Shown: positions 4,826 through 27,653, numbered from the stretch's first letter. The stretch: DNA of 41,076 nucleotides from a virus (IMGVR_UViG_3300048838_000785:1-41076); one strand, 5' to 3'. Notes: generated by a model from the sequence alone, not told the origin. Made by a program: numbers and translations.

Positions 4826-5119
4826 TCAACAAAGTGCCATCTTAAAACGCCGAGAAAAGCCTTTCTCGTCTGCTACCGATTGGACAAGCACAGTTCGCCC
4901 GTCCGCTAAAACGATCCTGTCCCCGGCCCTGATGTCCGCGCTGGCTGCGGCGAAAATCCGCCGGGTCGGGTTGAATTCGATCCCTGCATCTGAAGTAGCA
5001 CTGATTCCGCTTACCTCTTCCACTCGGGCTCTGACTGTGCGCGTGTCCTCTACAGGCCGATTGTATCGGTCAACGACTGCTCGGCTGACGGTGATATTTT
5101 CGGTAAAATATTCCGTCAT
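4826..5119 (-). CDS. Head closure / head-tail joining protein
   Basis: 97-aa beta-rich protein. It begins with the open strand pattern TEYFTENITVSRAVVDRYNRP, and the C-terminal half DIRAGDRIVLADGRTVLVQSV reads as a small barrel typical of stopper/head-closure proteins (a property word pair 'GDRIVL..GRTVLVQSV'). Position before the gp10-like and terminator genes supports this. The ATG overlaps the stop of the NeuB-like gene (ATGA), so the connector genes are coupled to the carbohydrate module. Confidence 0.72.
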   Translation of the reverse strand: MTEYFTENITVSRAVVDRYNRPVEDTRTVRARVEEVSGISATSDAGIEFNPTRRIFAAASADIRAGDRIVLADGRTVLVQSVADEKGFSRRFKMALC

Positions 5120-5976
5120 TTTTGGTTCAGGTGCTCCCGCAGTTTTCGCATCGGCTCGATTTCACATTCAAGGATTTCTTTCGGGCGTGTTGTAACTGCT
5201 TTTTCAGCAAGTCTCATTCTCTTCACTGCAAGCGCGAATTGCTCGAAATTCAAGGACATACTTTGGTCAGACCCGTAGTCGTTTCGATCCTCCGTCACGT
5301 GCCGCTCGACGTACAGAGCGCCGGCCCCGATTGCCACGCAATCAAGAATCCCCGGATCGTCATGGTCGGCCACATGAGACGACCAGCCGTAATAACTGCG
5401 CTGCCATCGTAATCGTCCTAAATTCAAAAGATCAATCGGTGCGGGATATGCGGCGACACAGTGAATAAGGAATACCTCCGGGCGTTCGCTATCCGTAAAA
5501 TCTTTTCGATGCTCTATGTTCGCTAATACGTCAAAATCTGCCTGAGTGCATCCGCCGGTTGCAATATACAGCCTTTTATAGCGGGCTGCGCACAAATCCC
5601 GTAAGCCTCTGTCTATCGCCATGGCCGAGGGTATTTTTACAGAATCGCTCAGCCACCGCATGGTTTCCGCGCTGTTCACATCCCAAACAGAGACCATAAT
5701 CCCAACGCCGCAAGCATCAGCTTCCGCCTTCAACTCCTCGTATTGCTTAACGCTAAATTCCAGCCCTTCTTTCTGCGCCCGCTGTGTTGTGCCCCACGGT
5801 GACTCACGGGGCGAGTCGAGAAATTCTTTCGTATAGCAGAGGTCGATTGTCCGCTTCTGAAATTTTACAACGTCCGCTCCTGCCTCTGCGGACTTCCGAA
5901 TCATCCGCTTTGCTTTTTCAAGATCCCCGTTGTGGTTGATCCCTATTTCAGCTATGATCTTGATCTTGACGCTCAT
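5116..5976 (-). CDS. neuB: NeuB-like nonulosonic (sialic-type) acid synthase, lacking the C-terminal SAF domain
   Basis: 286 aa. Enzymes of this family condense phosphoenolpyruvate with an N-acetyl-hexosamine to give sialic, legionaminic or pseudaminic acid. Visible motifs: AEIGINHNGD at residues 9-18 (Glu10), VVKFQK at 36-41 (Lys38), AAYPAP at 175-180, SSHVADHDD at 199-207 and ERHVTED at 224-230, whose histidines correspond to the metal ligands. It ends soon after the TIM barrel, whereas cellular NeuB proteins are about 340-350 aa with a C-terminal antifreeze-like (SAF) domain. The loop that reads KIGSGE in meningococcal NeuB reads AIDRGL here (120-125), so substrate or mechanism may differ. 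The ATG overlaps the previous stop. Which sugar is made cannot be told from sequence. Confidence 0.88.
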   Translation of the reverse strand: MSVKIKIIAEIGINHNGDLEKAKRMIRKSAEAGADVVKFQKRTIDLCYTKEFLDSPRESPWGTTQRAQKEGLEFSVKQYEELKAEADACGVGIMVSVWDVNSAETMRWLSDSVKIPSAMAIDRGLRDLCAARYKRLYIATGGCTQADFDVLANIEHRKDFTDSERPEVFLIHCVAAYPAPIDLLNLGRLRWQRSYYGWSSHVADHDDPGILDCVAIGAGALYVERHVTEDRNDYGSDQSMSLNFEQFALAVKRMRLAEKAVTTRPKEILECEIEPMRKLREHLNQK

Positions 5977-6170
5977 TCGCTTTCAGCAGATCCCTGCCCA
6001 TCGCGAATTCCCCATTTCTTCCGCTTCTCTTTCTCTTCACGGCGCAGCGGCAGTTCCGGGCTCTGTTTGATCGGCGTGAACAAGGCCGCATACTCCGCTT
6101 CAGGAATGGCAATCATGTTCCCAATCGGCTGAATTCTTACTTTGCGGTGGTTAGATTTTACAGGTTCCAT
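5973..6170 (-). CDS. Small unknown protein between NeuA-like and NeuB-like genes
   Basis: 65 aa, with a GAGGAGAC ribosome site just upstream of the ATG at 6170. The N-terminal half (RKVRIQPIGNMIAIPEAEYAA) is mixed beta/helix; the C-terminal half is strongly charged (LRREEKEKRKKWG). It overlaps the NeuB-like start by 4 bases, so the two are translated together. No family recognised; a role in the sugar pathway is only suggested by position. Confidence 0.7.
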   Translation of the reverse strand: MEPVKSNHRKVRIQPIGNMIAIPEAEYAALFTPIKQSPELPLRREEKEKRKKWGIRDGQGSAESE

Positions 6171-6179
6171 TCTGTCTCC

Positions 6180-6857
6180 TCAGTAATAGCTATTCTGAAC
6201 AAATTCGCGGGCCACCTTAAGGTCATGCAGCCATTGATGCAAATATAGATGGTCCTCTCTAAAGTCAATGTCAAAAAGCACCCGGTTAGGAATTATGAAC
6301 GGGTCAGAGTCTCCAATATTGTGCCGCGCTGTCGGGACTAACGAGCGGTGCATGACGTAGAACGACCCGTCCTCAATCCAGCATTCTTGATTGCCGGACA
6401 CAAACTGCCCCGGAGTTTCCCCGTTTATCCCGACCCCGCCCCGCCACACTCGCCCCCGGTGCAAATAGGCGGTGAAACCGGACTTTTTCTTGCTGGCAAA
6501 AAATTCATTCAGCCCCAGCGTGAAGCACCTCCGCCCCCTAATCGGGCAGGTCGGACTCATCATCCCATACCACTCCGCGTCAACCAGGCTTGCAAAATGC
6601 TGCCATAGTTCAGCCCCGTACGGACGGCTCTCGCATAACTCTACGGGGCGCTTAATCCGCGCCTCTGCCGGAACCTGAGCCAAATAGTCGTCTGAATCGC
6701 TGCTTAAAAATACCCGCCGGGTGTAGGTTTGCGCGAAATGATAGGTCAGACGGATGAGCGACACGCCGTCGAGCGTGGCAAGCCCTTTTGCCGGGAAGCG
6801 TTCACTGCCACCCCGGGCAGGGATAAAAATTGCCAGATTATTCAGCGCTTCGTCCAT
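6180..6857 (-). CDS. neuA: NeuA-like CMP-nonulosonate cytidylyltransferase
   Basis: 225 aa from the ATG at 6857, inside the end of the radical SAM gene. NeuA enzymes join CTP and a nonulosonic acid to give the CMP-sugar donor. Motifs in order: IPARGGSERFP at 12-22 (nucleotide-binding loop; the usual GGSKR is GGSER here), SSDSDD at 52-57, KRPVEL near 69-74, SPTCPIR at 101-107, EDGSFYVM at 162-169 and DIDFREDH at 196-203, the catalytic aspartate region. All are in the expected order and spacing, so the protein looks intact. A longer start at 6908 would overlap the upstream gene by 67 bases and add a sequence unlike the family. A related cytidylyltransferase such as a KDO type is less likely given the adjacent NeuB. 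Confidence 0.88.
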   Translation of the reverse strand: MDEALNNLAIFIPARGGSERFPAKGLATLDGVSLIRLTYHFAQTYTRRVFLSSDSDDYLAQVPAEARIKRPVELCESRPYGAELWQHFASLVDAEWYGMMSPTCPIRGRRCFTLGLNEFFASKKKSGFTAYLHRGRVWRGGVGINGETPGQFVSGNQECWIEDGSFYVMHRSLVPTARHNIGDSDPFIIPNRVLFDIDFREDHLYLHQWLHDLKVAREFVQNSYY

Positions 6858-7576
6858 TCTGGGATGTCCGTCCTCAGCTCGATTTTTTTGTCTGCATTGA
6901 AATTGCATTTCTTGCAGATTTCATAATAATAGCGATTTTTGCGGAGCCCTTTCCGCGCTTTGAAGTATTCCGGCTTTCTCCAGATCTTGTCGATAGACTC
7001 TTTGCCGACATTCCCGAAAAACGTTTTCCCGCTCCAATCGTCGCAACACAGAACCACATCACCCAGGTAGTTGACGTAAGTCGCCTTGCCGTCTGCCGGG
7101 AAGCATTTTTCTGCCGGCTTTGCCGTCTGCTCTGTCTCGATAGATCCTCCCCGATTGTGCAGGACCGCGCCGTCAAATCTCCTGACGGTAAGAATCCCAT
7201 GGCTGATGGAGAACCATCGCGGATTGGGAACGGGGTTATGGTCTGTTACGACAATCTCAGACATTCCTGCGGCCTGCAATTTATCTATGGTCGGCAGGTC
7301 CAGGTAGTCACCGTTAGAGAACATCTTTACCCGCGCACCCATCGCCCCGGCAAGCTCACAAATGACATAGATTCTCTGATCGAGCATCGGCTCGCCGTAC
7401 AGGTTCGGGTGGATAGTCCCGGTAAACTCTGCTCGCCTGAGCTGCTCCATAAGCCCGAACAGAATTTCGTCAGGCATGAATTCCTCAGGCCGAGCCTTTA
7501 ATGACACGGGGCAATAGCTGCAAGACCTGTTGCACTTGCTCGTCGTCTCAATGTCGATTCGCTCAAATAGTTCCAT
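6842..7576 (-). CDS. Radical SAM enzyme with SPASM-like C-terminus
   Basis: 244 aa. The radical SAM motif CNRSCSYC lies at residues 15-22 (CX3CX2C, binding the 4Fe-4S cluster that cleaves SAM). A GEP segment follows at 61-63, as usual after the second strand. The C-terminal third has C158, a NYLGDVVLCCDDW segment with C177/C178, FGNV, a KIW segment, and CKKC at 221-224: a SPASM-like auxiliary cluster pattern. Such enzymes modify peptides, sugars or nucleotides; the substrate is unknown. Placed between GT8 and NeuA genes and overlapping both, it probably serves the same glycan pathway, for example by dehydrogenating or epimerising a sugar. Confidence 0.9.
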   Translation of the reverse strand: MELFERIDIETTSKCNRSCSYCPVSLKARPEEFMPDEILFGLMEQLRRAEFTGTIHPNLYGEPMLDQRIYVICELAGAMGARVKMFSNGDYLDLPTIDKLQAAGMSEIVVTDHNPVPNPRWFSISHGILTVRRFDGAVLHNRGGSIETEQTAKPAEKCFPADGKATYVNYLGDVVLCCDDWSGKTFFGNVGKESIDKIWRKPEYFKARKGLRKNRYYYEICKKCNFNADKKIELRTDIPEWTKR

Positions 7577-8174
7577 AGAACCGCATCCACCTTTCCAGCC
7601 ATAGAGGGCTGCACTTGTCCGGCTCGATCCACGGTTTCGGCCCGACGAAATGAAAAATTTTTATCTTATTTTGTAAAAACGCATGCAGGTTTTTATGTCT
7701 CTCCACCCACGATGCGAGAAAATTCATTTCCGGGCCGAGAATACCGGGCTTGATCCAGCCGTAATAAATCGCATCGTTTATATAGCCCTGATCCCCACCG
7801 TCATAAGTCGAGAAGGTCTGGAACGGAACGCCGGTAAAGCTGCAATTCTCATAGAATACCACCCCCGTATTCAGAAGCGGATATTGATAGCGCAGCGAGT
7901 CCTTCCCCATCGCAAACCCGGGCCATTTAACGGACCCGAGACACAGACAGTCAGCGTCGATAAAGAGCATCTGTTTATGGCCTTTCCAGCCGTGCTTAAA
8001 GAGACTGATTTTTTTCATCGCCACCGAATAGCGGTCAGAGGCTGGAAGGTCGCACTCTATTCGGTCAGCGTGAATCGCCTCAAACTCGATGTCCGGGTTA
8101 TAGCGTCGAAAACTGCGCTCAAGCACTCGCGCCCCGACCTCATAGGCGTCATCGTAAATAGTCAAAGCAATCAT
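7563..8174 (-). CDS. GT8-type glycosyltransferase
   Basis: 203 aa from the ATG at 8174, which overlaps the previous stop (ATGA). GT8 hallmarks are all visible: an N-terminal beta strand (MIALTIYDDAYEVGARVL), a Lys-rich helix before the DxD motif FIDADC at 72-77 (DAD binds the metal and nucleotide sugar), LLNTGVVFYE, the GDQGYIND segment and a late HFVGPKPW. Family members transfer glucose, galactose, GlcNAc and similar sugars from NDP-sugars. It is shorter than many GT8 enzymes but has both halves of the fold. Acceptor unknown; the neighbouring virion-like protein is one candidate. Confidence 0.88.
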   Translation of the reverse strand: MIALTIYDDAYEVGARVLERSFRRYNPDIEFEAIHADRIECDLPASDRYSVAMKKISLFKHGWKGHKQMLFIDADCLCLGSVKWPGFAMGKDSLRYQYPLLNTGVVFYENCSFTGVPFQTFSTYDGGDQGYINDAIYYGWIKPGILGPEMNFLASWVERHKNLHAFLQNKIKIFHFVGPKPWIEPDKCSPLWLERWMRFYGTI

Positions 8175-8686
8175 GCGGCGATCCATCCGTCTATGTTGTG
8201 CGTTCTGCTCGCACCGACTGACAGAACCTGTATGCCGTATTTAGAATTCGGCTTGAGCACCCACCAGGCGATCGGCAAAGACTTGCCGAGTTCAAAGGCG
8301 TAGTCCCCGGAGCGAGCAATAAAAGAGCTGAGTTGAGTTCCGACGTTTGAGACAGTCGGGCGAGTGGTAACTACCGCAGGCGCTAAAATCGCGCTATTGC
8401 GGTTCAGGTTATGCAAAGATTGCGGCGTTCCACCGGTCGAAACGACGTCCTCGAAAAAAAGAATGTCGGCGTTGCCGCTCGATGCCACCCGAAAAGCGAA
8501 CAGCACAGCAGACGCCCCGGTTTCTATCTGCACAATGATGAGCGGCGACCCGGCGGCGTTAAACGTATCGCTAAAAGAGAAATAGAACGCCCGCCCATTG
8601 TCAGCCATTTCATCGGTCAGCGACTCTATAGCTATAGCGTGTCTGCTCGTAATGCGAGCAGCCCCCGCCCACAGTTCGCGGCTCAT
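8171..8686 (-). CDS. Virion structural (decoration/fiber-like) protein inside the sugar module
   Basis: 171 aa, beta-rich. The sequence follows a pattern common to small phage structural proteins: an N-terminal helix, FYFSFSDTF, a SPLIIVQIETG strand, an HNLNRNSAI segment, and a late WWVLKPNSKYGIQVLSVG strand pair. Ser/Thr/Ala-rich stretches (VTTRPTVSNVGTQLSSFIA) could carry sugars. It is flanked on both sides by glycan enzymes and overlaps both. I infer that it is a capsid- or neck-exposed protein and a possible glycan acceptor; the sequence alone does not prove either. Confidence 0.6.
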   Translation of the reverse strand: MSRELWAGAARITSRHAIAIESLTDEMADNGRAFYFSFSDTFNAAGSPLIIVQIETGASAVLFAFRVASSGNADILFFEDVVSTGGTPQSLHNLNRNSAILAPAVVTTRPTVSNVGTQLSSFIARSGDYAFELGKSLPIAWWVLKPNSKYGIQVLSVGASRTHNIDGWIAA

Positions 8687-9360
8687 GCCAGAACCTCACC
8701 CAAGACGCCGTCTGATTTAATGATGCCCGGAAATCGCAGCGACAGAAGCCGCCAATCCGCGATTTGCTTTTCATACCCTTCTGCTTTCTTCTCAGCCATG
8801 TGTTGCTCTTTGCCGCTCCCCCATTTCGGGTGCAGCCCGTCGCCCGTGTAATGATGCGTTTTGCCATCAGCCCCTCCGCAATCGATCCCGAGAAGCTGAA
8901 CGCCAATAGCCCCGGCCATGATTGCAAAATGCGCTGCAAAGGTCGATGACGAAAAGCGAGAAAAGCAGCCTGCCGCGAAGCTATCGTCTATTTTTTTCCA
9001 ATCGCGCAGCCGGGGGAACCGCGTTACATACTCTTCATCTATCACATTAAGAGGCGTTCCGTCAAAGGTGATCGTTCGGCAGGGCAGCACGTTCATCGGG
9101 CGCACTCCTGCATTGTAGATGGTATGCCAATCCCCGAAACACCATACAGACGGGTTCGGTACATAGAGAATTTCATGATTTACGGCTATGGTCTTTTTGT
9201 CTGCAAGCGAGTCATAGTCAAACCCGCCCATTGACGGCCCGGACCCGACGACGTAGACAACGTGATTTTTGAAAAACCCTCGCATCCATGACGGCCCCGC
9301 CTCGATCATTTTCTTCTCTTCGGCCTTGCGGTTTACGATGCGGTGCATATCAACCCGCAT
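8683..9360 (-). CDS. DUF115-type protein with GT42-like GxGPS motif (copy 2)
   Basis: 225 aa. After about 30 residues comes VVYVVGSGPSMGGFDYDSLA (GSGPSM at 39-44), then IAVNHEILYVPNPSVWCFGDW. This resembles the nucleotide-binding start of DUF115 proteins and of GT42 sialyltransferases such as Campylobacter CstII (a strand, G-x-GPS, a short helix, then an N-rich turn). A later GVQLLGIDCGG segment matches the second half of DUF115 proteins. It is a paralogue of the gene at 9976-10686. A CMP-sugar transferase role is inferred from the motif and from the linked NeuA/NeuB. The first ATG (9360) overlaps the previous gene; an in-frame ATG at 9348 is possible. Confidence 0.7.
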   Translation of the reverse strand: MRVDMHRIVNRKAEEKKMIEAGPSWMRGFFKNHVVYVVGSGPSMGGFDYDSLADKKTIAVNHEILYVPNPSVWCFGDWHTIYNAGVRPMNVLPCRTITFDGTPLNVIDEEYVTRFPRLRDWKKIDDSFAAGCFSRFSSSTFAAHFAIMAGAIGVQLLGIDCGGADGKTHHYTGDGLHPKWGSGKEQHMAEKKAEGYEKQIADWRLLSLRFPGIIKSDGVLGEVLA

Positions 9361-9985
9361 AGCCGTCAGCCACGATTGAAATTTTAGGCCGGCTTGTCAG
9401 GTGCGGCAAATCGGTCGGGCGCAAGACCACGCGGAACCCGGCTTCCTGCATGTCCTGCTTTAGCATCGTCTCTGTATAACCCCCGCAGTGATCTATGTAA
9501 GCACCATGCGGCGTCTGATGACTGACGATCCACTCGATCATCTGCTCTGCATTGAGACGCTTTGCAGCGTTAGCCACCGCTTCCCGGCTTACGGACGGGC
9601 CGCCGACATAGCCCTCATGGCTGTATCGCACAACCCACGTCAGAAGTTTTTGCTCTGCGGTCGCGCCCTCAAGCGCAATCTGCAAACCGCGCTGGAAAAA
9701 AAACTGACCACCTTTTTGATATTCGCGAAATGCAAGCCCAAAGTCAGGCACGACAATCCGGCACCGCCCTTTTTCCCACAGCACCCGACGAAAATCTTTC
9801 AGCACTCGCACCGCTGCTCGTCTCGGCATGTGTTCAAGGACATGAGAACAGTAGATAATCTCCGCGCTTCCGTCCTCGTAGGGGAGAGGGTTTTTCAGGT
9901 CATGCACGATCGGCCCGATCTTGTCAATGTTCTGCCACCCCTGCATAAGTTCGCGCCCGCATCCGACGTTTAGCTTTAAGAGCAT
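9350..9985 (-). CDS. Class I SAM-dependent methyltransferase
   Basis: 211 aa. Motif I is LKLNVGCGRELMQGW, followed by an acidic IVHDLKNPLPYEDGS, the IYCSHVLEHMP post-motif and the strand CRIVVPDFGLAFREY. This is the methyltransferase-11-like type often found in polysaccharide clusters. A GGAGGAAATACT ribosome site precedes the ATG at 9985. Lying between two DUF115-type genes, it may methylate a sugar on the glycan; a DNA or protein substrate is less likely but not excluded. Confidence 0.82.
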   Translation of the reverse strand: MLLKLNVGCGRELMQGWQNIDKIGPIVHDLKNPLPYEDGSAEIIYCSHVLEHMPRRAAVRVLKDFRRVLWEKGRCRIVVPDFGLAFREYQKGGQFFFQRGLQIALEGATAEQKLLTWVVRYSHEGYVGGPSVSREAVANAAKRLNAEQMIEWIVSHQTPHGAYIDHCGGYTETMLKQDMQEAGFRVVLRPTDLPHLTSRPKISIVADGYAG

Positions 9986-10686
9986 AGTATTTCCTCCGGG
10001 CGAGCTTTTCTGAAACGCGGAATGACCGACACCGGGGACAGGTTAATGATATTTTCAGGATCGAATTTCTGAAAAGCGTTCCTCCCGGCCCGCTCGTATT
10101 GCTCCATATACCCGTCGCCATGGTGGATCTCTCCGCCCGGTTTGAAAGACGAGCTGTAAAAATGGCAAGTGTCCCGGTCCTTCCCGCCGGCTGCTATGCG
10201 CTCGAAATACTCCCGCGCCTCCGGCAAATACGCATCGCTCGGCTTCATCTGCGCGGCTCTTTCTGCCGTCATTTTGCACTGATCGAGCCCGAGCAGGTAG
10301 ATTTTGCAACCATGCACCTGAGCAAAATTGATTGCGAGCTGCGCGGTCAGGTAGCGGGAGAATAGCCGCCCGCTTCGCAACCATTCTTCCCGACCGACAG
10401 GAGAGCCCTCCGGGCCCGTAGCTATAAACCGCGTGCAGTCGGTCAGATCCTGCAACCCGTCCGCCGTCGTTACAATATGCGCTCCATTTCGGGAGGGCTC
10501 GCATCTTCTGTAAACGTCCTGATCGTAGAAGATCCAGAAAGCCGGATCCGGTACAAACCGAATCGCATCATTGATGCAGACGCAGCACTTGTCTCTGAGC
10601 AGCTCAAAGTTGAAATGCTTGAGAGACGGGCCGCCGCCGACGATAAAGACCTCTTCGGGTAGATCATGTAAAACTCCGTTAAGCAT
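9976..10686 (-). CDS. DUF115-type protein with GT42-like GGGPSL motif (copy 1)
   Basis: 236 aa. The N-terminus reads VFIVGGGPSLKHFNFELLRD (GGGPSL at 17-22), then CVCINDAIRFVPDPAFWIFYD. The arrangement is very like the CMP-sugar-binding start of GT42 sialyltransferases and of DUF115/MptE-like proteins. Later, QLAINFAQVHGCKIYLLGLD matches the second Rossmann half. It is the first gene of the sugar module, overlapping the minor head gene by 8 bases. I favour glycosyltransferase; a pterin-type diphosphokinase, the other activity known in DUF115, is less fitting for the context. Confidence 0.7.
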   Translation of the reverse strand: MLNGVLHDLPEEVFIVGGGPSLKHFNFELLRDKCCVCINDAIRFVPDPAFWIFYDQDVYRRCEPSRNGAHIVTTADGLQDLTDCTRFIATGPEGSPVGREEWLRSGRLFSRYLTAQLAINFAQVHGCKIYLLGLDQCKMTAERAAQMKPSDAYLPEAREYFERIAAGGKDRDTCHFYSSSFKPGGEIHHGDGYMEQYERAGRNAFQKFDPENIINLSPVSVIPRFRKARPEEILCS

Positions 10687-11569
10687 TCAACTCCGCCAGC
10701 TTGCGTTCATTGCGCTCTTCTTGCTCCTGCAAGCTCTCTTGTTGCGCTTCTCTCCGGGCATCGGTCTTAGCCTCAAAGAAAGGCGCTAAAGTATGAAAGC
10801 AATTTGGATGAAAAGGAGGAAGCTGATCAAGCTCATCATACCCGGCAGTTGCACCGGTTAGCGAAAACACAAGCCCCTCATATTCAAGGCAGATTTCGGT
10901 TTCTGTGTCGTGGTCGCTGACTCTTACCAGGTCGTGCCCGAGTTCAAGCAATGAATTCTTCATCGCCATAGATTGTGCTTCCCGGACTCGCGTCCGCGCC
11001 ACCATGTCCGCGTAAGCCTCGGGATGATAGCGGCGAGTTGTCCCGGTTGCGCTATTCACCGTGATGATCTTGCCGTCCTTTCCCACCCGCTCTTCAAGCG
11101 TTTTTAGCAATTCCGATTTCACCGCTCTAGGCGTGTTGTCCGTTTCAAGGCCTGCCTTGAGAGCCTGATTTATTTTCGCTTCCTCAATGTTGTACTGCTG
11201 TGTCAGCCGGAACAACCTCTCTGTGTCGCGGGCCCCTGCATCGAGGGCGGTAAAGGTATCAAGCAAGACCTCCCGAGTAAATAGCTGGATGACCTGCTCC
11301 TGTTTACCGGACGCTCGGAGAGCTGCGGCTACCCGGCTACCGACCGCTTTCTTTGCGGACTTTTCGCCGGCAGTGTATGACTCTCGGATAGCTGCCGTAA
11401 AATACCGCGCCATGATGTCCTTGATCTTGCCGTATTCCTCGTTTACGACTTTAAGCCGGGGCTCAAAGAAGTTGTTTTCAGTCCTGCGGCTTCCGATGAC
11501 GGACTGAATAAGCGAAATGATCGTATCGCTACGGTTCTTCAGATAGCGTAAAAAGGTTTCCCGGCTCAC
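10679..11569 (-). CDS. Minor head protein (Mu gpF / SPP1 gp7-like head morphogenesis)
   Basis: 296 aa. The middle is helical; the C-terminal part has the family pattern ARTRVREAQSMAMKNSL, then TETEICLEYEGLVFSL and LPPFHPNCFHTLAPFF, with the paired Cys/His (ICLEYEG, HPNCFH) seen in phage minor capsid proteins. The end is a Gln/Glu-rich coiled coil. These proteins join the portal inside the prohead. GTG start at 11569 overlaps the previous stop (GTGA). The gene comes after the capsid here, whereas in many phages it follows the portal directly. Confidence 0.85.
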   Translation of the reverse strand: MSRETFLRYLKNRSDTIISLIQSVIGSRRTENNFFEPRLKVVNEEYGKIKDIMARYFTAAIRESYTAGEKSAKKAVGSRVAAALRASGKQEQVIQLFTREVLLDTFTALDAGARDTERLFRLTQQYNIEEAKINQALKAGLETDNTPRAVKSELLKTLEERVGKDGKIITVNSATGTTRRYHPEAYADMVARTRVREAQSMAMKNSLLELGHDLVRVSDHDTETEICLEYEGLVFSLTGATAGYDELDQLPPFHPNCFHTLAPFFEAKTDARREAQQESLQEQEERNERKLAELNA

Positions 11570-14859: not shown

Positions 14860-16162
14860 CTTCTTCTTGCTCCTGCGGTTCTTCCTGCGGCCTGTTCATC
14901 ATGGCGTCAACTTGCGCTTGAATCTGCGCTTTACGCTCTGCTTCCTGCGCTTCAAGCTCTTTACTCATGCGCGGATCCCATCCGGGGATGCGATCTTGCA
15001 CCATTGATTTCGGAATCATACCGCCATCATAGAGAGGCAGCCATACTTCCACAAGTTCCTTGAGCTGATGACTCGTATTCTGCGCAAGCTGCACGTCCAC
15101 ACGGGATATATCAAGCGTCGGGTCCACCATCGCCATCGATTTCTCAAGAATTTCGTATATTGCGGCAACCCATAAATCGCGGGTTGCGTTTTGAACCGCC
15201 TTCGCCTCCCGCAACTCTTCAGCCGTTGACCGGTTGGACATTTCCGATGCGTAGCCAAGAAGATGAATTCCAATCCCTGTATAACCTGAGATAGCCCGAG
15301 ACAGTGCTGTAATTTCGCGCTCGATCGACTGCTGACCATTGCCAGTGGGCTCCGGGAAATACGCTTTTGCCGCCGCTGCAATTTCTTCACCCGGTTCAAT
15401 CCCTCCCGCTGCTTGTTTTGCGGTGAGCCATTCTATGATTTGCGCTGCGGTGTCCGCGTCGCTCGCTTCAAAGTGCCGCCCGAGTGTGCCCCAAAGGCTG
15501 TTCATTGCTCGCCAATCAGCAAAGGCAATTTCGATTGAAGCGCAGGACGTAAGAACCGGTGCGATCGGCGGAGTGGGGTATTCAGCAAGAGCCTCATGTG
15601 TCCCCGCGCTGCCAATATCTTCGAGCGAGACGTAAATAAAACCGTTCTTGTCAAGCAGCGGCACCGCGCTCTGTGCGCCCCGGACAAAAAATTCGATACG
15701 CTCGATTTCGGTAAAATTATCTTTGTTCAAATAGATCCGGTACCGCCAATCGTGCCACCGCAGATATTGAAGCTTTACAGTATCTGCGCCCTTATACCGG
15801 TGTTTCTTCGGAACGAGCAACACTTGGCCCTCAAGCTCACCGCCCCGGACGATCTTTGTCAGAAACGGCCCGTCAAGCGTGTTGACTTTCAAAAAAGTAT
15901 CAATGAAATCTTGCTCTTTTTTACGATCAGCTCTGATGCTTGCGCCATTCCCGCAAAGCGTTCCGACCTGATGGGCAAGAATGGTCCGCAAGATCAATCC
16001 GCCAAACTGCTCCTGCATTTTGAACATCCGCCATGCGGTGTCGACCTGCCCTTGAAAGTTCGTGTATTGATTGCCTCGATTGCTTATGCGACGGAACCCT
16101 TCCGGCCCGGTGCGGATGTCCTGAGTAGCGGCGATAACCTGTTTTCTCGCTCTACCCGCCAC
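14840..16162 (-). CDS. Portal protein
   Basis: 440 aa, immediately downstream of the large terminase, overlapping it by 11 bases with a GTG start. The pattern fits dodecameric portals: an N-terminal helical arm, a central region with ILRTILAHQVGTLCGNGASI and KKEQDFIDTF, a beta-rich wing (GQVLLVPKKHR), and the long helical clip/crown region with IEREITALSRAISGYTGI and LLGYASEMSNRSTAEELREA. The segment just before the end is Gln/Glu-rich (NRPQEEPQEQEE). Size and order are typical. Confidence 0.85.
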   Translation of the reverse strand: MAGRARKQVIAATQDIRTGPEGFRRISNRGNQYTNFQGQVDTAWRMFKMQEQFGGLILRTILAHQVGTLCGNGASIRADRKKEQDFIDTFLKVNTLDGPFLTKIVRGGELEGQVLLVPKKHRYKGADTVKLQYLRWHDWRYRIYLNKDNFTEIERIEFFVRGAQSAVPLLDKNGFIYVSLEDIGSAGTHEALAEYPTPPIAPVLTSCASIEIAFADWRAMNSLWGTLGRHFEASDADTAAQIIEWLTAKQAAGGIEPGEEIAAAAKAYFPEPTGNGQQSIEREITALSRAISGYTGIGIHLLGYASEMSNRSTAEELREAKAVQNATRDLWVAAIYEILEKSMAMVDPTLDISRVDVQLAQNTSHQLKELVEVWLPLYDGGMIPKSMVQDRIPGWDPRMSKELEAQEAERKAQIQAQVDAMMNRPQEEPQEQEEDGNDTN

Positions 16163-17447
16163 GCTTACCCACCGTTGCCACCGCTCGTTTATTCGCGGTT
16201 ACTCGTTTTGCAAAATATCTCAGGGCGTCCATGCAGTGGTCGTTTTCTTTGACCGGCTTCTCGTCGCGGTCGTCCCCGTGCTTTTCTGCCGGGTAGCGGT
16301 AGCCCATAGCCTCGTTTCGGGTATGCTGACAGGTCGCAAATATGCGTAACTTCGTGCCTCTTTTAGCTCCGATCAAGTCGCGCACCGATTGCACCCCTGA
16401 CTTGATGTCCTTGTCTGCCGCGAGTGTCCGAAGGCCCTGCTGAGCCATAGTTGCCCGGTCGCCCGCATCATGGTCCGCCACGATCCACTCCAGAGCCAGG
16501 CTACCGGAGAGGTACTCAGGTTTTCGTTTCTTGAGTGCCTGGCAATTTTCAAGAGCGGTCCTCCCAACAGATCGATATTCGTCGATCAAATAATACGTCT
16601 CATTGGCCCGGTCAAGCGCAAAAAGTAAAAATACAAAAGGGTTCGTAAACCCAAAGTCGGCCGCCGCGAACAGATCCCATCCGGTGACAGGGAAGGGCTC
16701 AACGACGGCCTGCTCAAAATCAGGATATACGAGCCCCTCAGATCCTACCCATAGCCCTTTGACCAACCGATCATAGGCAACTCCGGTCAACGACTCAAGA
16801 ACCTGACGGCCTCTGTCAGATAGCCGATCGTTGTCAGTCGGGAGCCACGGACCCCGCCGAAACAGAGATTTTGCGTGCTTGACCTGCTCGCCTGATTCCG
16901 GGTCTTCATGCTGCAAAAAATAGCGGTGGATCCAGTGGTATTGATTGGCCGGGTTGCAATCGACTACGATTTTCGGGTCAAGCCGGCCAGCCGCATCGTC
17001 AACCGCCCTCGTTTTTACTGCCTGGTACGTGGCGTAAGGAACCTGTGTGGCCTCGTTGATAAAGACCGTCGAGAATTGCGTGCCCATGATTTTCTCGATT
17101 CGCTCCGGTTGGTCGAGGGCAAGGCCCCATATTTCAGAGCCGCCGATTTCGAGCAGCAGGGGTTTGCGGCTGTGCTTGATTCGCACTCCGGGGCAGTATT
17201 CCCGAATTGCGGGCAGGAGTGTTTGGGACCAGAGCGAATAGGCAAGATGGTTTTCCCGCAGGCGTGTCACCAGGTGTTTAGAACCCGGTGCTTGAATCGC
17301 TCGCTGAATAATAGCCACGACATTGACCCAAGTCTTGCCGGAGCGGGCAGCGCCGTCATGACATATTTCAAAGATCGACGGGTCGCGCCATTCGCCGCGC
17401 AGGGCGTCTTTCTGTTTTGCGTTCAGGTGCGGGGTACTGATTTCTAT
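16152..17447 (-). CDS. terL: Terminase large subunit, non-canonical start
   Basis: The ATPase P-loop GAARSGKT lies at 17354-17331, upstream of the first in-frame GTG (17318), so the protein must begin earlier. The frame opens after a TAA at 17471-17469, and no ATG, GTG or TTG precedes the P-loop. Candidates are ATA at 17447 (431 aa), ATC at 17441 and CTG at 17426; an AAAAGGAT stretch precedes the first two. Other motifs: the Walker B-like FSTVFINEATQ, and nuclease aspartates in AAADFGFTNPF, VADHDAGDRA and ENDHCMDALRYF. The protein cuts and pumps DNA into proheads. The exact start is uncertain. Confidence 0.88.
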   Translation of the reverse strand: MEISTPHLNAKQKDALRGEWRDPSIFEICHDGAARSGKTWVNVVAIIQRAIQAPGSKHLVTRLRENHLAYSLWSQTLLPAIREYCPGVRIKHSRKPLLLEIGGSEIWGLALDQPERIEKIMGTQFSTVFINEATQVPYATYQAVKTRAVDDAAGRLDPKIVVDCNPANQYHWIHRYFLQHEDPESGEQVKHAKSLFRRGPWLPTDNDRLSDRGRQVLESLTGVAYDRLVKGLWVGSEGLVYPDFEQAVVEPFPVTGWDLFAAADFGFTNPFVFLLFALDRANETYYLIDEYRSVGRTALENCQALKKRKPEYLSGSLALEWIVADHDAGDRATMAQQGLRTLAADKDIKSGVQSVRDLIGAKRGTKLRIFATCQHTRNEAMGYRYPAEKHGDDRDEKPVKENDHCMDALRYFAKRVTANKRAVATVGKRGG

Positions 17448-17458
17448 AGATCCTTTTC

Positions 17459-17851
17459 TTACGAGTCCTTAACCATCCCCGGAATCAGGAACATGGTAGG
17501 CTCATCAGATGTCGTCTCGACTCGCTGAGTGGGCCGGCCAAGAAGCCGATCATAGAAACGGTGCAGCTCTGAGAGGTCGCCGCTCTTGATGCCCTTGATT
17601 ATCGCGCTGGCCATCATAACCTTGACTGCCGGTTGTCCGGGTGACTGCATGTAACTCTGTAGAGCGGGCAAATCGAGCGACTTGATTTCTTCCCACGTTT
17701 CCGCAATCTCCCGTCGCGAGGCCTCACGAGCTTTTCTTTCGATTTCGCTCAGCGGATTTCTGCCGGGGCCCGGGACCATAACACGAGTTCCGCCATTGCC
17801 CGCAACCGATGCAGGACGCTGCTTTTTCTTAACGACTTTCTCTTTTTTCAT
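17459..17851 (-). CDS. terS: Terminase small subunit (probable)
   Basis: 130 aa from the ATG at 17851, overlapping the previous stop (ATGA). A basic Lys-rich N-terminus (MKKEKVVKKKQRP) and the GRNPLSEIERKAREASRREIAE helix are followed by a helical core (AVKVMMASAIIKGIKSGDLSELHRFYDRLLGRPTQ) typical of DNA-recognition subunits, including the conserved DRLLGRP ending. It directly precedes the large subunit. Assignment is by order and core pattern. Confidence 0.78.
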   Translation of the reverse strand: MKKEKVVKKKQRPASVAGNGGTRVMVPGPGRNPLSEIERKAREASRREIAETWEEIKSLDLPALQSYMQSPGQPAVKVMMASAIIKGIKSGDLSELHRFYDRLLGRPTQRVETTSDEPTMFLIPGMVKDS

Positions 17852-19161
17852 TGCGGGAACTCCTTTCCGGTCTGTGCGTGCTTCGCACGTTTTCCGGTGA
17901 ATTGCTGCCACCGTTTTATTATAACGTCACAGTAAGCAGGGCTTATCTCAATGGCACGCGCTTTCCGACCTGTCTGTTCAGCGGCGATAATACAAGTGCC
18001 CGAGCCCGCGAATGGATCGAGCACAATATCGCCGGCCTCAGAGCTGTTCAAAAACGCGTTCTCGTAGAGCGCCACGGGTTTCATGGTCGGGTGCTCTGGC
18101 GACGCCTGCGGCTTGTTGACCGGCCACACAGAAGTCTGGAAGGCCCCTGCTCGGATGCGCTTGTGTGTCTTGACCCAGGTGAACAAGATCGGTTCGTGCT
18201 GGTAGTCATAGTCGAGGCGGCCCATTGAGAACGTCGGTGATGACTTAACCCAGATAAGAACGTGCCGCACCGGAAGACCGGCGTCCCGCATCATCATCGT
18301 CATCATCATTCCGAGTTCGCCGCCTTGCGGGGCCGTCAGGTAAACCGCGCAATCGTTTGCCATCCCAATCTCCCGAGCATTTATAAACGCGGCCCGCAGG
18401 ATAAGTTCCAGATCCTCAGGAGCCAGATCATCGGACTCTATATCGGTTAAATTCCGTCCAGAAGGCTGGACGGAATTTAGCATCCTGTTCTTCGCGCCTA
18501 CAGAAACTCCGTAGGGCGGATCGGTAAAAACGCATGTAGCCCGCTCCCCGCCCATCAGAGTCTCGAAACTCTCTGGCTTTGTCGAATCGCCGCACAAAAG
18601 GCGGTGCTCGCCTAAAAGCCACACGTCGCCCGGTTTGGTGACCGGCTTTTTCGGAGGTTCCGGAACGCTTTCTTCAACTACATCTACGTTCTCACCCGCC
18701 GCGCTGCTATGGGCGGGCGGCGAGCCTGCGCCAATCTCCCCTAAATCGAAAGTCGGAATATCGATCTCAAGTCGAAAATCCGCGAGGGGGATCTTCATAT
18801 CCTCAAGATAGTTTAACAGGTTACCGGGCTGAATATCGGCGTATTGCGACATGAACACGACCGACAGCCGCACAGCCTCTTTCTTACTTTTCGCGTTCAC
18901 CCAGACAGCGGGTAATTCGTCAGGAACCGGGTGCCCCTCAGCTTTCAACTCGCGCAATACGTCTTCGCGGTGGCATCCGTCAAGCAGCCAATCCGTTTTC
19001 CCATCGTTCCATACATGAAATGGCGACGCGAAACCGTTTTTCAGAAGCGACCGTTTCAATTTCTGCCGTTGTTCCGGGCTCTGCGCTTTTAGATCGCGGG
19101 GCTGGAGCCATCTACATTGCGTCCAGTCAATCAAGCCCTGTTTTAATATCCGGGTATCCAC
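17848..19161 (-). CDS. ParB-like domain fused to a beta-class DNA methyltransferase
   Basis: 437 aa. The N-terminal 150 residues are a ParB/Srx-like domain (SLLKNGFASPFHVW, then LLDGCHREDVLREL). The C-terminal part is an N6-adenine or N4-cytosine methyltransferase of circularly permuted (beta) order: DPPYG near residue 212 first and DPFAGSGT near 380 last. Such fusions are common upstream of phage terminases and probably methylate phage DNA to block host restriction or mark packaging sites. GTG start overlaps the previous stop by one base (TAGTG). Confidence 0.9.
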   Translation of the reverse strand: MDTRILKQGLIDWTQCRWLQPRDLKAQSPEQRQKLKRSLLKNGFASPFHVWNDGKTDWLLDGCHREDVLRELKAEGHPVPDELPAVWVNAKSKKEAVRLSVVFMSQYADIQPGNLLNYLEDMKIPLADFRLEIDIPTFDLGEIGAGSPPAHSSAAGENVDVVEESVPEPPKKPVTKPGDVWLLGEHRLLCGDSTKPESFETLMGGERATCVFTDPPYGVSVGAKNRMLNSVQPSGRNLTDIESDDLAPEDLELILRAAFINAREIGMANDCAVYLTAPQGGELGMMMTMMMRDAGLPVRHVLIWVKSSPTFSMGRLDYDYQHEPILFTWVKTHKRIRAGAFQTSVWPVNKPQASPEHPTMKPVALYENAFLNSSEAGDIVLDPFAGSGTCIIAAEQTGRKARAIEISPAYCDVIIKRWQQFTGKRAKHAQTGKEFPQ

Positions 19162-19739
19162 TATTCCACCAACCGCATCCCTGAAACATACACTCCGAGG
19201 CCGTCATTCTCGCCTACCAGAGCTAAGCCAAGTTTATCGAGCACTTCGGCATTTGTCCAGTCATGTTTATGCGCTTCGTGCGGGTTGGCCGCCTCAAAAT
19301 CGGGGTTCTGATGGTAGTGCTTACCGCCTCCCGACTCGTTCGGGATTGAGGCAATGACTGTCTTATACTCCCGCCGTAAATTACCGATCAAACGAATTGC
19401 TTGCTCCTGCTCTAAATGTTCGAGAACATCGATAAAAAGAAAAGCGTCTGCAAATATATACTGCTTCTCAATATCCGCACACGTTTTGATCTCATAAGTC
19501 CCGCCGCAATCATTGAGGTATTCAATATGCACGTCCACACCGATCAAGAACAGATCCGGGCGAACAGTGCGAATCAGACGGCCAAAAGTCCCGCGCCCGC
19601 AACCCATATCGGCCACGTGGGATCTGTGGGGTATCTCCATGATAAGCGGGCGGATCAGAGGCCATGATTTGTCGGGCCTGCTGCGCCCTCCCTGTAGCGT
19701 AAGGGCCTGCTCTATTATTTTTCGTTCGGTCTCAGTCAT
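19161..19739 (-). CDS. Class I SAM-dependent methyltransferase
   Basis: 192 aa. Motif I VADMGCGRGTFGRLI, then LFLIGVDVHIEYLND, FADAFLFIDVLEHLEQEQA (motif for a carboxylate plus DVLEHL) and a final strand KTVIASIPNESGGG. The fold is complete. It has no DPPY motif, so small-molecule, sugar or protein methylation is more likely than DNA. It overlaps neighbours by 1-4 bases and lies beside the ParB-methyltransferase. Substrate unknown. Confidence 0.82.
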   Translation of the reverse strand: MTETERKIIEQALTLQGGRSRPDKSWPLIRPLIMEIPHRSHVADMGCGRGTFGRLIRTVRPDLFLIGVDVHIEYLNDCGGTYEIKTCADIEKQYIFADAFLFIDVLEHLEQEQAIRLIGNLRREYKTVIASIPNESGGGKHYHQNPDFEAANPHEAHKHDWTNAEVLDKLGLALVGENDGLGVYVSGMRLVE

Positions 19740-25641: not shown

Positions 25642-26988
25642 CTAACCGTAAATTCTATCTAACGTTTCTACTTTCCGCAGAGCCGTTTTTATAATCTCTT
25701 CATCCAATGAGTTCTCCACAATCAAGAACCGGGCGAGCACCGCCGATTTTTGGCCGATCCGATGAAACCTGTCCACCGCCTGGTCTATATCCCCGGGCAC
25801 ATACCAGGGCTCAACAAATAAAGCGTGGCTTGCGGACGTAAGCGTAATACCCACCCCGGACGCCTTGATTTGCCCGATAAACACCCGGCAAGAAGATTCG
25901 TTCTGGAACGCCTGCACTCGCTCCTGTCGGATTTTATGCGGCACCCCGCCATGAACCAGAGCAGGGTTGTATTCTGCAAGTGCGGTGTTTAGCTCTTCAG
26001 CGACTGCACGGTGCCAACAAAAGACGCCGATCTTCTCGATGGATTCTAAATCGTTTTTAATAATCGACAGCGCATGCGGAACTTTTGCAAGCCCGAATTC
26101 ATGGCGCAGACGTGCAAGCGGCGTCAGGTCGAAGGGCCCGCGCTCCAGCAGATCTTGCAAATCAAGCGAGAAATTCTCAGCGGGCATTGCCTGCATTACA
26201 TCTTCTATCGAATAGCCCTGTTCTTCTTTGATCAGCTTTTTAAGTCGAGCGTCCGGGCCTATGTGCAGAATTTGATAGTTCTTTTCGGGCAGTTCCGGCA
26301 GCACGTCTTTTTTTAATCTACGTAACATGAACTTAGATAGAATTGCTTTCAGCTCCTTTTCATTTCTGACGCCTTTCGGCGCAAAGCCGAACTGGTTAAA
26401 TTTGTTTATCGACGGCTTCGTATCATAGCAGAACCGCTGTACCCACGCGGCATAACTTTTTAATCCATCAGGTAAATCTCCGCACCGGGCGGCCATTGTG
26501 TACAGCTCATGCGCTCCATTGGGTGCGGGCGTGCCGGACAGGCAAAGCAGCTTTGACTGCCCCTCTCGATAGATACCTTTTATCTTTCGCGCCCCTAAAA
26601 TTCGCTGCGTTCGTATAGCCGCCGGGCTCTTGAGATAGTGCGCCTCATCTATTATGATCTGCCCCCATCGCCGCGCTGACAGCTTATCGTGCATAGCCGC
26701 TGCAAGTTCAAAAGACACAATAACCCAGTCAGCGACGGGGGCTTGCTTCGCGGAGTCTACGATCTGCAACCAGACGCGGGTAAACCCGCGCCTGTGAATT
26801 TCGTCTCGCCAGTTGAGCTTGAGAAACGCTGGACAGATTATTAAAGTTTTCTCCGCTTCACTTGATATATTGAGCGCCTGGACTGTCTTGCCCAGGCCCA
26901 TTTCATCCGCGAGAAGCGCCCGCCCCGTCGCCGCAAGCTGGATCTTTAGCCAGTCGACGCCCTCGCGCTGGAACGGGTAAAGATTCAT
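25642..26988 (-). CDS. SNF2-family DNA helicase/translocase
   Basis: 448 aa from the ATG at 26988, overlapping the previous stop (ATGA); an in-frame TTG at 26994 is an alternative and has GGAAGGAG 4 bases upstream. Motifs in order: Walker [14 protein letters not shown] near 27-39, DEAH in [21 protein letters not shown] (III), a Q/T-rich central region, then [19 protein letters not shown] and HRIGQKS (V and VI). This is the standard SNF2 set. Such phage proteins are thought to remodel replication or recombination intermediates. It is encoded with other replication genes. Confidence 0.93.
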
Positions 26989-27653
26989 GTCCAAATTACT
27001 CCTTCCAGATTGCAGCCTTGGTTTTCGAGCATCGATCTATGTAATTTGTCCACTTTTGCCCCGAAAAGATTCGCCCCGGAGAGATCCGCCCGGGAGAGAT
27101 TCGCCCCGAAAAGATTCGCCCCGTAGAGATTCGCCCCGAAAAGATCCGCCCCGTAGAGATTCGCCCCGAAAAGATCCGCCCCGTAGAGATTCGCCCGGGA
27201 GAGATTCGCCCCGGAGAGATCCGCCCCGGAGAGATCCGCCCGGGAGAGATTCGCCCCGGAGAGATCCGCCCGGGAGAGATTCGCCCCGAAAAGATTCGCC
27301 CCGGAGAGATCCGCCCGAGAGAGTAAACGCCAGAATGCTTCCGGTCTGACTCGGCGCAGCTGCAATCTTCGCACGCCAAATTTTTCGGATGACTCGCTTA
27401 CAACGTCGTTCTCGGTCCAGCGCGCATACCAGATCCACCAATTACGCGGGGCGTAGCGAGCGTCGATCTTGCGCATGACATGCAGACGCCCCGGCCCGCA
27501 GTCACTCCTGTCTGATGCGATCGGTTTCGGGTGCTCAGTCCATTCGGACCATTTTTGTCCGCGCTGCGGTAGATTATACGCAAACCGATTCCCGGCATAC
27601 TCTGTACAACCGTCAGGCCCGAGGAACTTCCAGCCGTATTGGTAATTTTTCAT
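26985..27653 (-). CDS. Pentapeptide-repeat protein
   Basis: 222 aa. About 110 N-terminal residues form a globular domain ([35 protein letters not shown], mixed beta with conserved W and C), then about 18 tandem A(D/N)LxX repeats ([20 protein letters not shown]...), which fold as a square right-handed beta helix. A short C-terminal tail follows. Family members mimic DNA (gyrase inhibitors), bind proteins or protect DNA. Position among replication genes and beside an SNF2 helicase would suit a DNA-mimic role; no function is proved. The repeats are almost identical at DNA level. ATG overlaps the previous stop. Confidence 0.88.
27059..27330 (-). repeat. 15-bp tandem repeats coding the pentapeptides
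   Basis: About eighteen 15-bp units with a few variants. A 30-bp block at 27121-27150 is repeated exactly at 27151-27180, and the next unit starts the same way. Such high identity points to recent duplication, so repeat number could vary between isolates. Confidence 0.9.

Follow-up and report, generated by a model that had tools for sequence, protein, structure and literature searches.

Phage virions are usually regarded as bare protein. In mycobacteriophages, transferases are thought to decorate the capsid and tail proteins (Freeman et al. 2023, cited in PMC12619734), and in Acinetobacter, phage-encoded O-acetyltransferases act on the nonulosonic acid (NulO) of the capsule (PMC6586298). The genes neuA and neuB have been listed among virome genes (PMC3877843), and an ORF annotated as NeuB_NnaB lies in the lysis cassette of the Stenotrophomonas phage DLP4 (PMC6469090). 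On the cellular side, leptospires make NulOs, one route of which involves a synthase-phosphatase fusion (PMC3438082). The presence of neuA and neuB in viromes and the glycosylation of virions by phage transferases are already known; what is new here is an ulosonic-acid module in a head operon, for which we found no description in a literature search that covered mainly openly available papers. One large ocean AMG survey discarded candidates whose contigs also bore glycosyltransferases and nucleotide-sugar genes (PMC11360552), and this filter may be one reason why such modules went unnoticed. We propose, with moderate confidence, that the module is expressed late, makes an activated ulosonic acid of the nine-carbon type and attaches it to a component of the virion.

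The locus belongs to the 41,076-base viral record IMGVR_UViG_3300048838_000785, the whole of which was analysed and which we call the window. It carries a 127-base direct terminal repeat, and a second contig, 99.98% identical over about 16 kb, spans the join of its two ends; the 41 kb phage genome is therefore complete. On the minus strand, the genes of the head operon follow in the order terminase, portal (assigned via homology to the portal of a related locus, L009), protease/scaffold-position protein, decoration protein, MCP, adaptor, MuF, module, head closure, neck and tail terminator. In the region 16152-19739, the terminase is 47% identical to those of Leptospira LE1-type phages, and ParB/DNA-methylase genes lie upstream as in those phages, but the LE1-type phages gave no capsid or MuF match to the window proteins, so that the genome looks mosaic by homology. 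This terminase and the existence of leptospiral NulOs are no more than suggestive of a link to a leptospiral host. Elsewhere in the genome, a 15-base tandem repeat occurs about 17 times at positions 26995-27368, mostly within the ORF at 26985-27653.

The module is an unbroken run of nine ORFs, at 5116-10686 on the minus strand, which leads from the MuF-type minor head protein to the head-closure protein. The original prediction had placed it correctly, on the right strand, and every ORF that it named exists; it had missed two, at 8171-8686 and 5973-6170. The features of the module and its flanks, in the direction of reading, are as follows.

10679..11569, minus strand: MuF-type minor head protein, upstream flank (PHROG_4611 minor head, 1.6e-34; Phage_min_cap2, 4.8e-13)
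9976..10686, minus strand: sialyltransferase-like (GT42/DUF115) protein 1, 236 aa (PHROG_4603, 1e-6; 31% identity to protein 2)
9350..9985, minus strand: class I SAM-dependent methyltransferase, 211 aa (Methyltransf_11, 6.8e-7; PHROG_6636, 1.1e-8)
8683..9360, minus strand: sialyltransferase-like (GT42/DUF115) protein 2, 225 aa (PHROG_4603, 1.7e-7; partial AF2 model, pTM 0.59)
8171..8686, minus strand: PHROG_5335 protein, 171 aa (PHROG_5335, unknown function, 1.1e-8)
7563..8186, minus strand: GT8-like glycosyltransferase, 207 aa (Glyco_transf_8, 9.3e-4, below cut-off; 6mw5, 0.0012)
6842..7576, minus strand: radical SAM/SPASM protein, BtrN-like (Radical_SAM, 7.5e-8; SPASM, 8.1e-13; BtrN, 2e-29)
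6180..6908, minus strand: NeuA-like CMP-ulosonate synthetase (CTP_transf_3, 3.6e-7; start likelier about 6857)
5973..6170, minus strand: 65-aa ORF (overlaps the NeuB start by 4 bases; no family match)
5116..5976, minus strand: SAF-less NeuB-family synthase, 286 aa (Pfam NeuB, 1.1e-38)
4826..5119, minus strand: head-closure/head-tail adaptor protein, downstream flank (PHROG_5309, 5e-3, weak)

Ten junctions lead from MuF to closure: eight are overlaps of 4-16 bases, one is a 9-base gap, and one depends on the start of NeuA, which overlaps the radical SAM gene by 67 bases with its longest start and by 16 with an inner ATG. A start near 6857 rather than 6908 seems more likely, because the inner ATG gives the 16-base overlap. 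The short overlaps that had been said to tie the module to its two flanks are indeed there, with 8 bases between MuF and the first transferase and 4 between NeuB and closure. Because of these junctions and of a third-position G+C (GC3) similar to that of the head genes, the module seems well established in the operon rather than recently imported. The closure assignment, for which the profile match is weak, is supported by the position of the gene and by a homologue directly after MuF in module-free relatives. The 65-aa ORF had no match in the family profile searches (Pfam, PHROG, NCBIfam).

The synthase matches PF03102 with 133.5 bits (cut-off 22.1), positions 1-238 of 241 being matched, and we regard its predicted place in the NeuB family as certain at that level. 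Its residues 7-248 align with 22-258 of N. meningitidis NeuB (phmmer), and E10, K38, K114, S117, H205, E224, H226 and D237 align with NeuB/PseI at what we take to be the PEP-, metal- and substrate-binding positions of NeuB enzymes. The catalytic lysine and metal-histidine columns are invariant or nearly so in 13 NeuB sequences, SAF-bearing ones included. The SAF domain (PF08666), which supplies a substrate-binding arginine in textbook NeuB, is absent from the entire window record and from six related records; the window NeuB ends after its barrel domain, and every other head-operon copy is SAF-less as well. The protein also stays below the NeuB_NnaB equivalog cut-off of NCBIfam (142.1 versus 399.65 bits) and below that of PseI. 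As it is SAF-less and so far from the NeuB_NnaB cut-off, its product need not be Neu5Ac. SAF-less NeuBs are frequent in bacteria too, and thus the phages likely acquired theirs from cells. The window has no PF02350 match at E <= 1, as the reported lack of a NeuC-type epimerase had implied, and no NanE-like epimerase either, so that the precursor should come from the host.

The NeuA-like protein matches PF02348 with 30.7 bits (cut-off 22.6) and keeps the nucleotide-binding motif IPARGGS, the SPTCPIR segment and the DID...D metal motif. By itself it matches both NulO and KDO types weakly; its family profile (A10), which comes mostly from other phages, reaches 2e-57 with CMP-NeuAc synthetases versus 1e-16 with CMP-KDO synthetases.

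Both GT42/DUF115 candidates match PHROG_4603, 'alpha-2,3-sialyltransferase'. Against the PDB, their family profile (A8) finds CstII at 5e-16 and MptE at 0.033, and Pfam assigns 32 of the 36 family members to MptE-like and 3 to CST-I; on these profiles, the family of the two paralogues is to be placed between Pfam MptE-like/DUF115 and GT42. The column of the GT42-type catalytic histidine is half filled in this family, and thus not clearly conserved. The AF2 model of the protein at 8683-9360 is partly confident (pLDDT 64), with Z scores of 7.8 for MptE and 6.0 for CstII; its VIA-align matches mix MptE, thiamin pyrophosphokinase and sialyltransferases, and Foldseek gave none below 1e-3. For this protein, sequence profiles are more telling than fold comparison. 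The GT8-like protein scores 19.3 bits against PF01501, short of the cut-off of 24.3; it matches the Skp1 alpha-galactosyltransferase 6mw5 (0.0012), and a DAD motif (LFIDADC) and a C-terminal HFVGPKPW can be seen by eye in its sequence. The radical SAM protein carries CX3CX2C and has as its best match BtrN, an aminocyclitol dehydrogenase, at 2e-29 over residues 2-226, nearly its whole length; a defence-system reading was rejected, the viperin matches being weak and below BtrN. The 171-aa protein has no relatives in viral_contigs beyond the same phage, its single-sequence model is unusable (pLDDT 31.7), and a relative sits between terminase and portal in phage MEP301; it may be a virion protein or an acceptor. 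The announced content of the module is thus borne out by profiles for NeuB, NeuA, the radical SAM protein, the methyltransferase and the two GT42/DUF115 proteins, and weakly, below the cut-off, for the GT8-like one.

The same arrangement recurs in other phages. A search with the two GT42/DUF115 paralogues reached L009. Its homology to the window, at about 26-33% identity, extends over the portal, scaffold, decoration, capsid and MuF proteins, and between MuF and closure it carries a core of three genes, GT42/DUF115, NeuA and SAF-less NeuB. Three more loci, L051, L053 and L057, came from a MuF search, as did L054 and L055, which are cut by contig ends. L009, L051/L053 and L057 carry the transferase-NeuA-NeuB core where the window has it, at the MuF/closure junction, and L054 and L055 carry part of it there. 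The gap between MuF and closure is 2.7 to 5.6 kb in the carriers, and the empty site is seen in at least 11 module-free MuF relatives, in which MuF and closure share 4 bases. The transferase of L057 carries an added GT4-like domain (weak Pfam matches), and a protein of equal length and make-up exists in L051/L053. The carriers L051/L053 and L057 add NanE-like and HAD proteins: in L057, NeuA and NeuB are separated by a KdsC-like HAD phosphatase and NeuB is followed by a NanE-like protein (8.7e-6, below cut-off), and L053 has a NanE match at 1.8e-12 and a HAD protein. This suggests a route through phosphorylated ManNAc rather than the NeuC route. Because distant relatives have the same gene set at the same spot, the module in the head operon is best read as a recurring trait of distant phages and not a chance acquisition.

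The carriers cluster in the MuF tree (2 changes versus 6.5 expected by shuffling). In the NeuB trees, where long branches play a part, the four head-operon NeuBs group together in a quick tree and not in a careful one, and a single-clade constraint is not rejected (AU p 0.22), so neither a single nor a multiple origin can be claimed from the trees. Gaps of 2.5-8.5 kb after MuF in nine further loci (L059, L087, L089, L092, L097, L105, L114, L117 and L121) were set aside as scaffold/capsid genes in another gene order, not cargo. In L055, the MuF protein (7681-9453, 590 aa) has what by eye seems to be a Hint/intein-like insertion after 'HPNC'. GT42/DUF115-like genes also occur between MCP and MuF, without NeuB or NeuA, in L074, L079, L082 and L099, where they perhaps serve virion glycosylation with a host-made sugar.

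A profile from two phage NeuBs found 460 viral loci. In a sample biased by being fetched through NeuB or through operon relatives, 92 distinct NeuBs were compared, almost all of them viral. A NeuA-like neighbour lies no more than 8 kb away from 86 of these, and 50 are also near a GT42/DUF115-like gene. The median NeuB length is near 278 residues, so that most of these proteins should be SAF-less. Radical SAM genes are near 11 of the 91 viral NeuBs, and GT29-like ORFs near 11 of 91. The remaining one of the 92, L007 (FPLJ01000048.1), is from a Moritella viscosa bacterial contig that is filed among phages and resembles a phage NeuB match; H3 of the phage collection is a bacterial contig and was set aside. 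In the 484 kb huge phage LR756508.1 (L049, 9984-12074), tandem GT29 (eukaryotic-type) sialyltransferase genes lie beside a SAF-less NeuB, two identified by Pfam (8e-32, 2e-30) and two more by BLAST. Single-protein scans with the window NeuB, MCP and radical SAM protein matched nearly only the same phage. The claim that synthesis, CMP activation and transfer come together in one module gains from the same genes and junction in other phages and from this viral co-occurrence; it has to be qualified in that the synthase is SAF-less and Neu5Ac is not required as the product.

The pathway that we propose would begin with a six-carbon amino sugar from the host, perhaps phosphorylated ManNAc, which the SAF-less NeuB would condense with phosphoenolpyruvate. 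The resulting ulosonic acid would be activated with CTP by the NeuA-like protein, and the two GT42/DUF115 proteins, with the GT8-like one, would assemble, in the cytoplasm, a short glycan on a phage protein of the head or neck, while the BtrN-like radical SAM protein and the methyltransferase would tailor the sugar. The predicted PEP condensation and CMP activation are strongly supported, because the homology is strong and the catalytic residues are kept. Transfer by the GT42/DUF115 proteins is likely. We infer a C9 acid, made from ManNAc or ManNAc-6-P, and from the head-operon location we presume a virion protein as the acceptor; the tailoring roles are presumptive. Against the proposal stand the missing source of the SAF arginine, the GT42 histidine that is not clearly conserved and the GT8 match below its cut-off. 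A more specific version, to which we hold only tentatively, is that of a small tailed phage lineage with its own ulosonic pathway fixed in head morphogenesis, in which a SAF-less synthase would, as in animals, use a phosphorylated amino sugar and each particle would coat itself with an acidic sugar.

The location in the head operon suggests timing and not target, and the same synthesis and activation could instead serve to add the sugar, late in infection, to the LPS, a glycolipid or a surface protein of the host envelope, where it would block superinfection or the re-adsorption of progeny to debris. The capping of cell surfaces is indeed the usual bacterial use of NulOs, some phages encode enzymes that act on host NulO (PMC6586298), and in large phages (L048, L049) related NeuB-NeuA sets are embedded in long cassettes that resemble surface-glycan loci. 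We nevertheless consider an envelope target rather unlikely, given that several phages have the module at a fixed place in the head operon, that Pfam and PHROG searches found no flippase, polymerase or lipid-carrier gene in the module of the window, and that the lone GT42/DUF115 relatives also lie between MCP and MuF.

The product could also be another CMP-activated ulosonic acid and not a nonulosonic one, KDO-like or heptose-derived, in keeping with the SAF-less subfamily. The absence of SAF in all head-operon copies and the unreached NeuB_NnaB and PseI cut-offs speak for it, as does a Clostridium relative with a HAD-SIS fusion next downstream; more generally, cellular relatives of the SAF-less type can adjoin SIS-domain and HAD genes (L210), neighbours that make another ulosonic acid a possible product. 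Such a product appears improbable in view of the NeuA family profile, far closer to CMP-NeuAc than to CMP-KDO synthetases, of the NanE-like epimerases of L051/L053/L057 and of the sialyltransferase-like partner genes; moreover, a Neu5Ac route of Leptospira, described as animal-like, likewise couples a synthase with a phosphatase (PMC3438082, where SAF status is not stated). That the genes would be chance passengers, not used as a pathway, is hardly credible: the window NeuB and NeuA are divergent, and a single origin of the head-operon NeuBs cannot be demonstrated from the trees, but the same functions occupy the same junction in phages whose head proteins are only about 26-35% identical, the frames are intact, the catalytic residues are kept, the genes are coupled, and the carriers cluster by MuF.

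A sugar-acid pathway at a fixed site of the head operon in distant phages would make virion sialylation directly testable. An acidic glycan could change adsorption, particle stability or receptor use. The pathway would also show a use for SAF-less NeuB proteins, a group that is widespread among bacteria and viruses and poorly assigned.

Compared with the described systems, the window phage shares with the mycobacteriophages transferases that would decorate virion proteins, a putative role here; in the part of that literature covered here, no unusual-sugar synthesis and no NeuB or NeuA is reported for mycobacteriophages, whereas the window phage encodes precursor synthesis and activation. The O-acetyltransferases of the Acinetobacter phages modify a sugar made by the host and do not synthesize NulO (PMC6586298). 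The virome listing of neuA and neuB comes without gene order, head-operon link or mechanism (PMC3877843), and the DLP4 ORF, alike as a phage ORF of NeuB-type annotation, differs by its lysis region and its predicted transmembrane segment, no NeuA partner being mentioned (PMC6469090). The Leptospira pathway is similar in the logic of phosphorylated intermediates that NeuB and HAD suggest in L057, but it is cellular and used on surface lipoproteins, unlike the phage module (PMC3438082). With cellular NulO biosynthesis in general, the locus has in common the PEP-condensing synthase, the CMP activation and the GT42-like transferase; it differs by a synthase that is SAF-less, by dispensing with NeuC and by its place in a phage head operon, where relatives bring a NanE-like epimerase and a HAD phosphatase.
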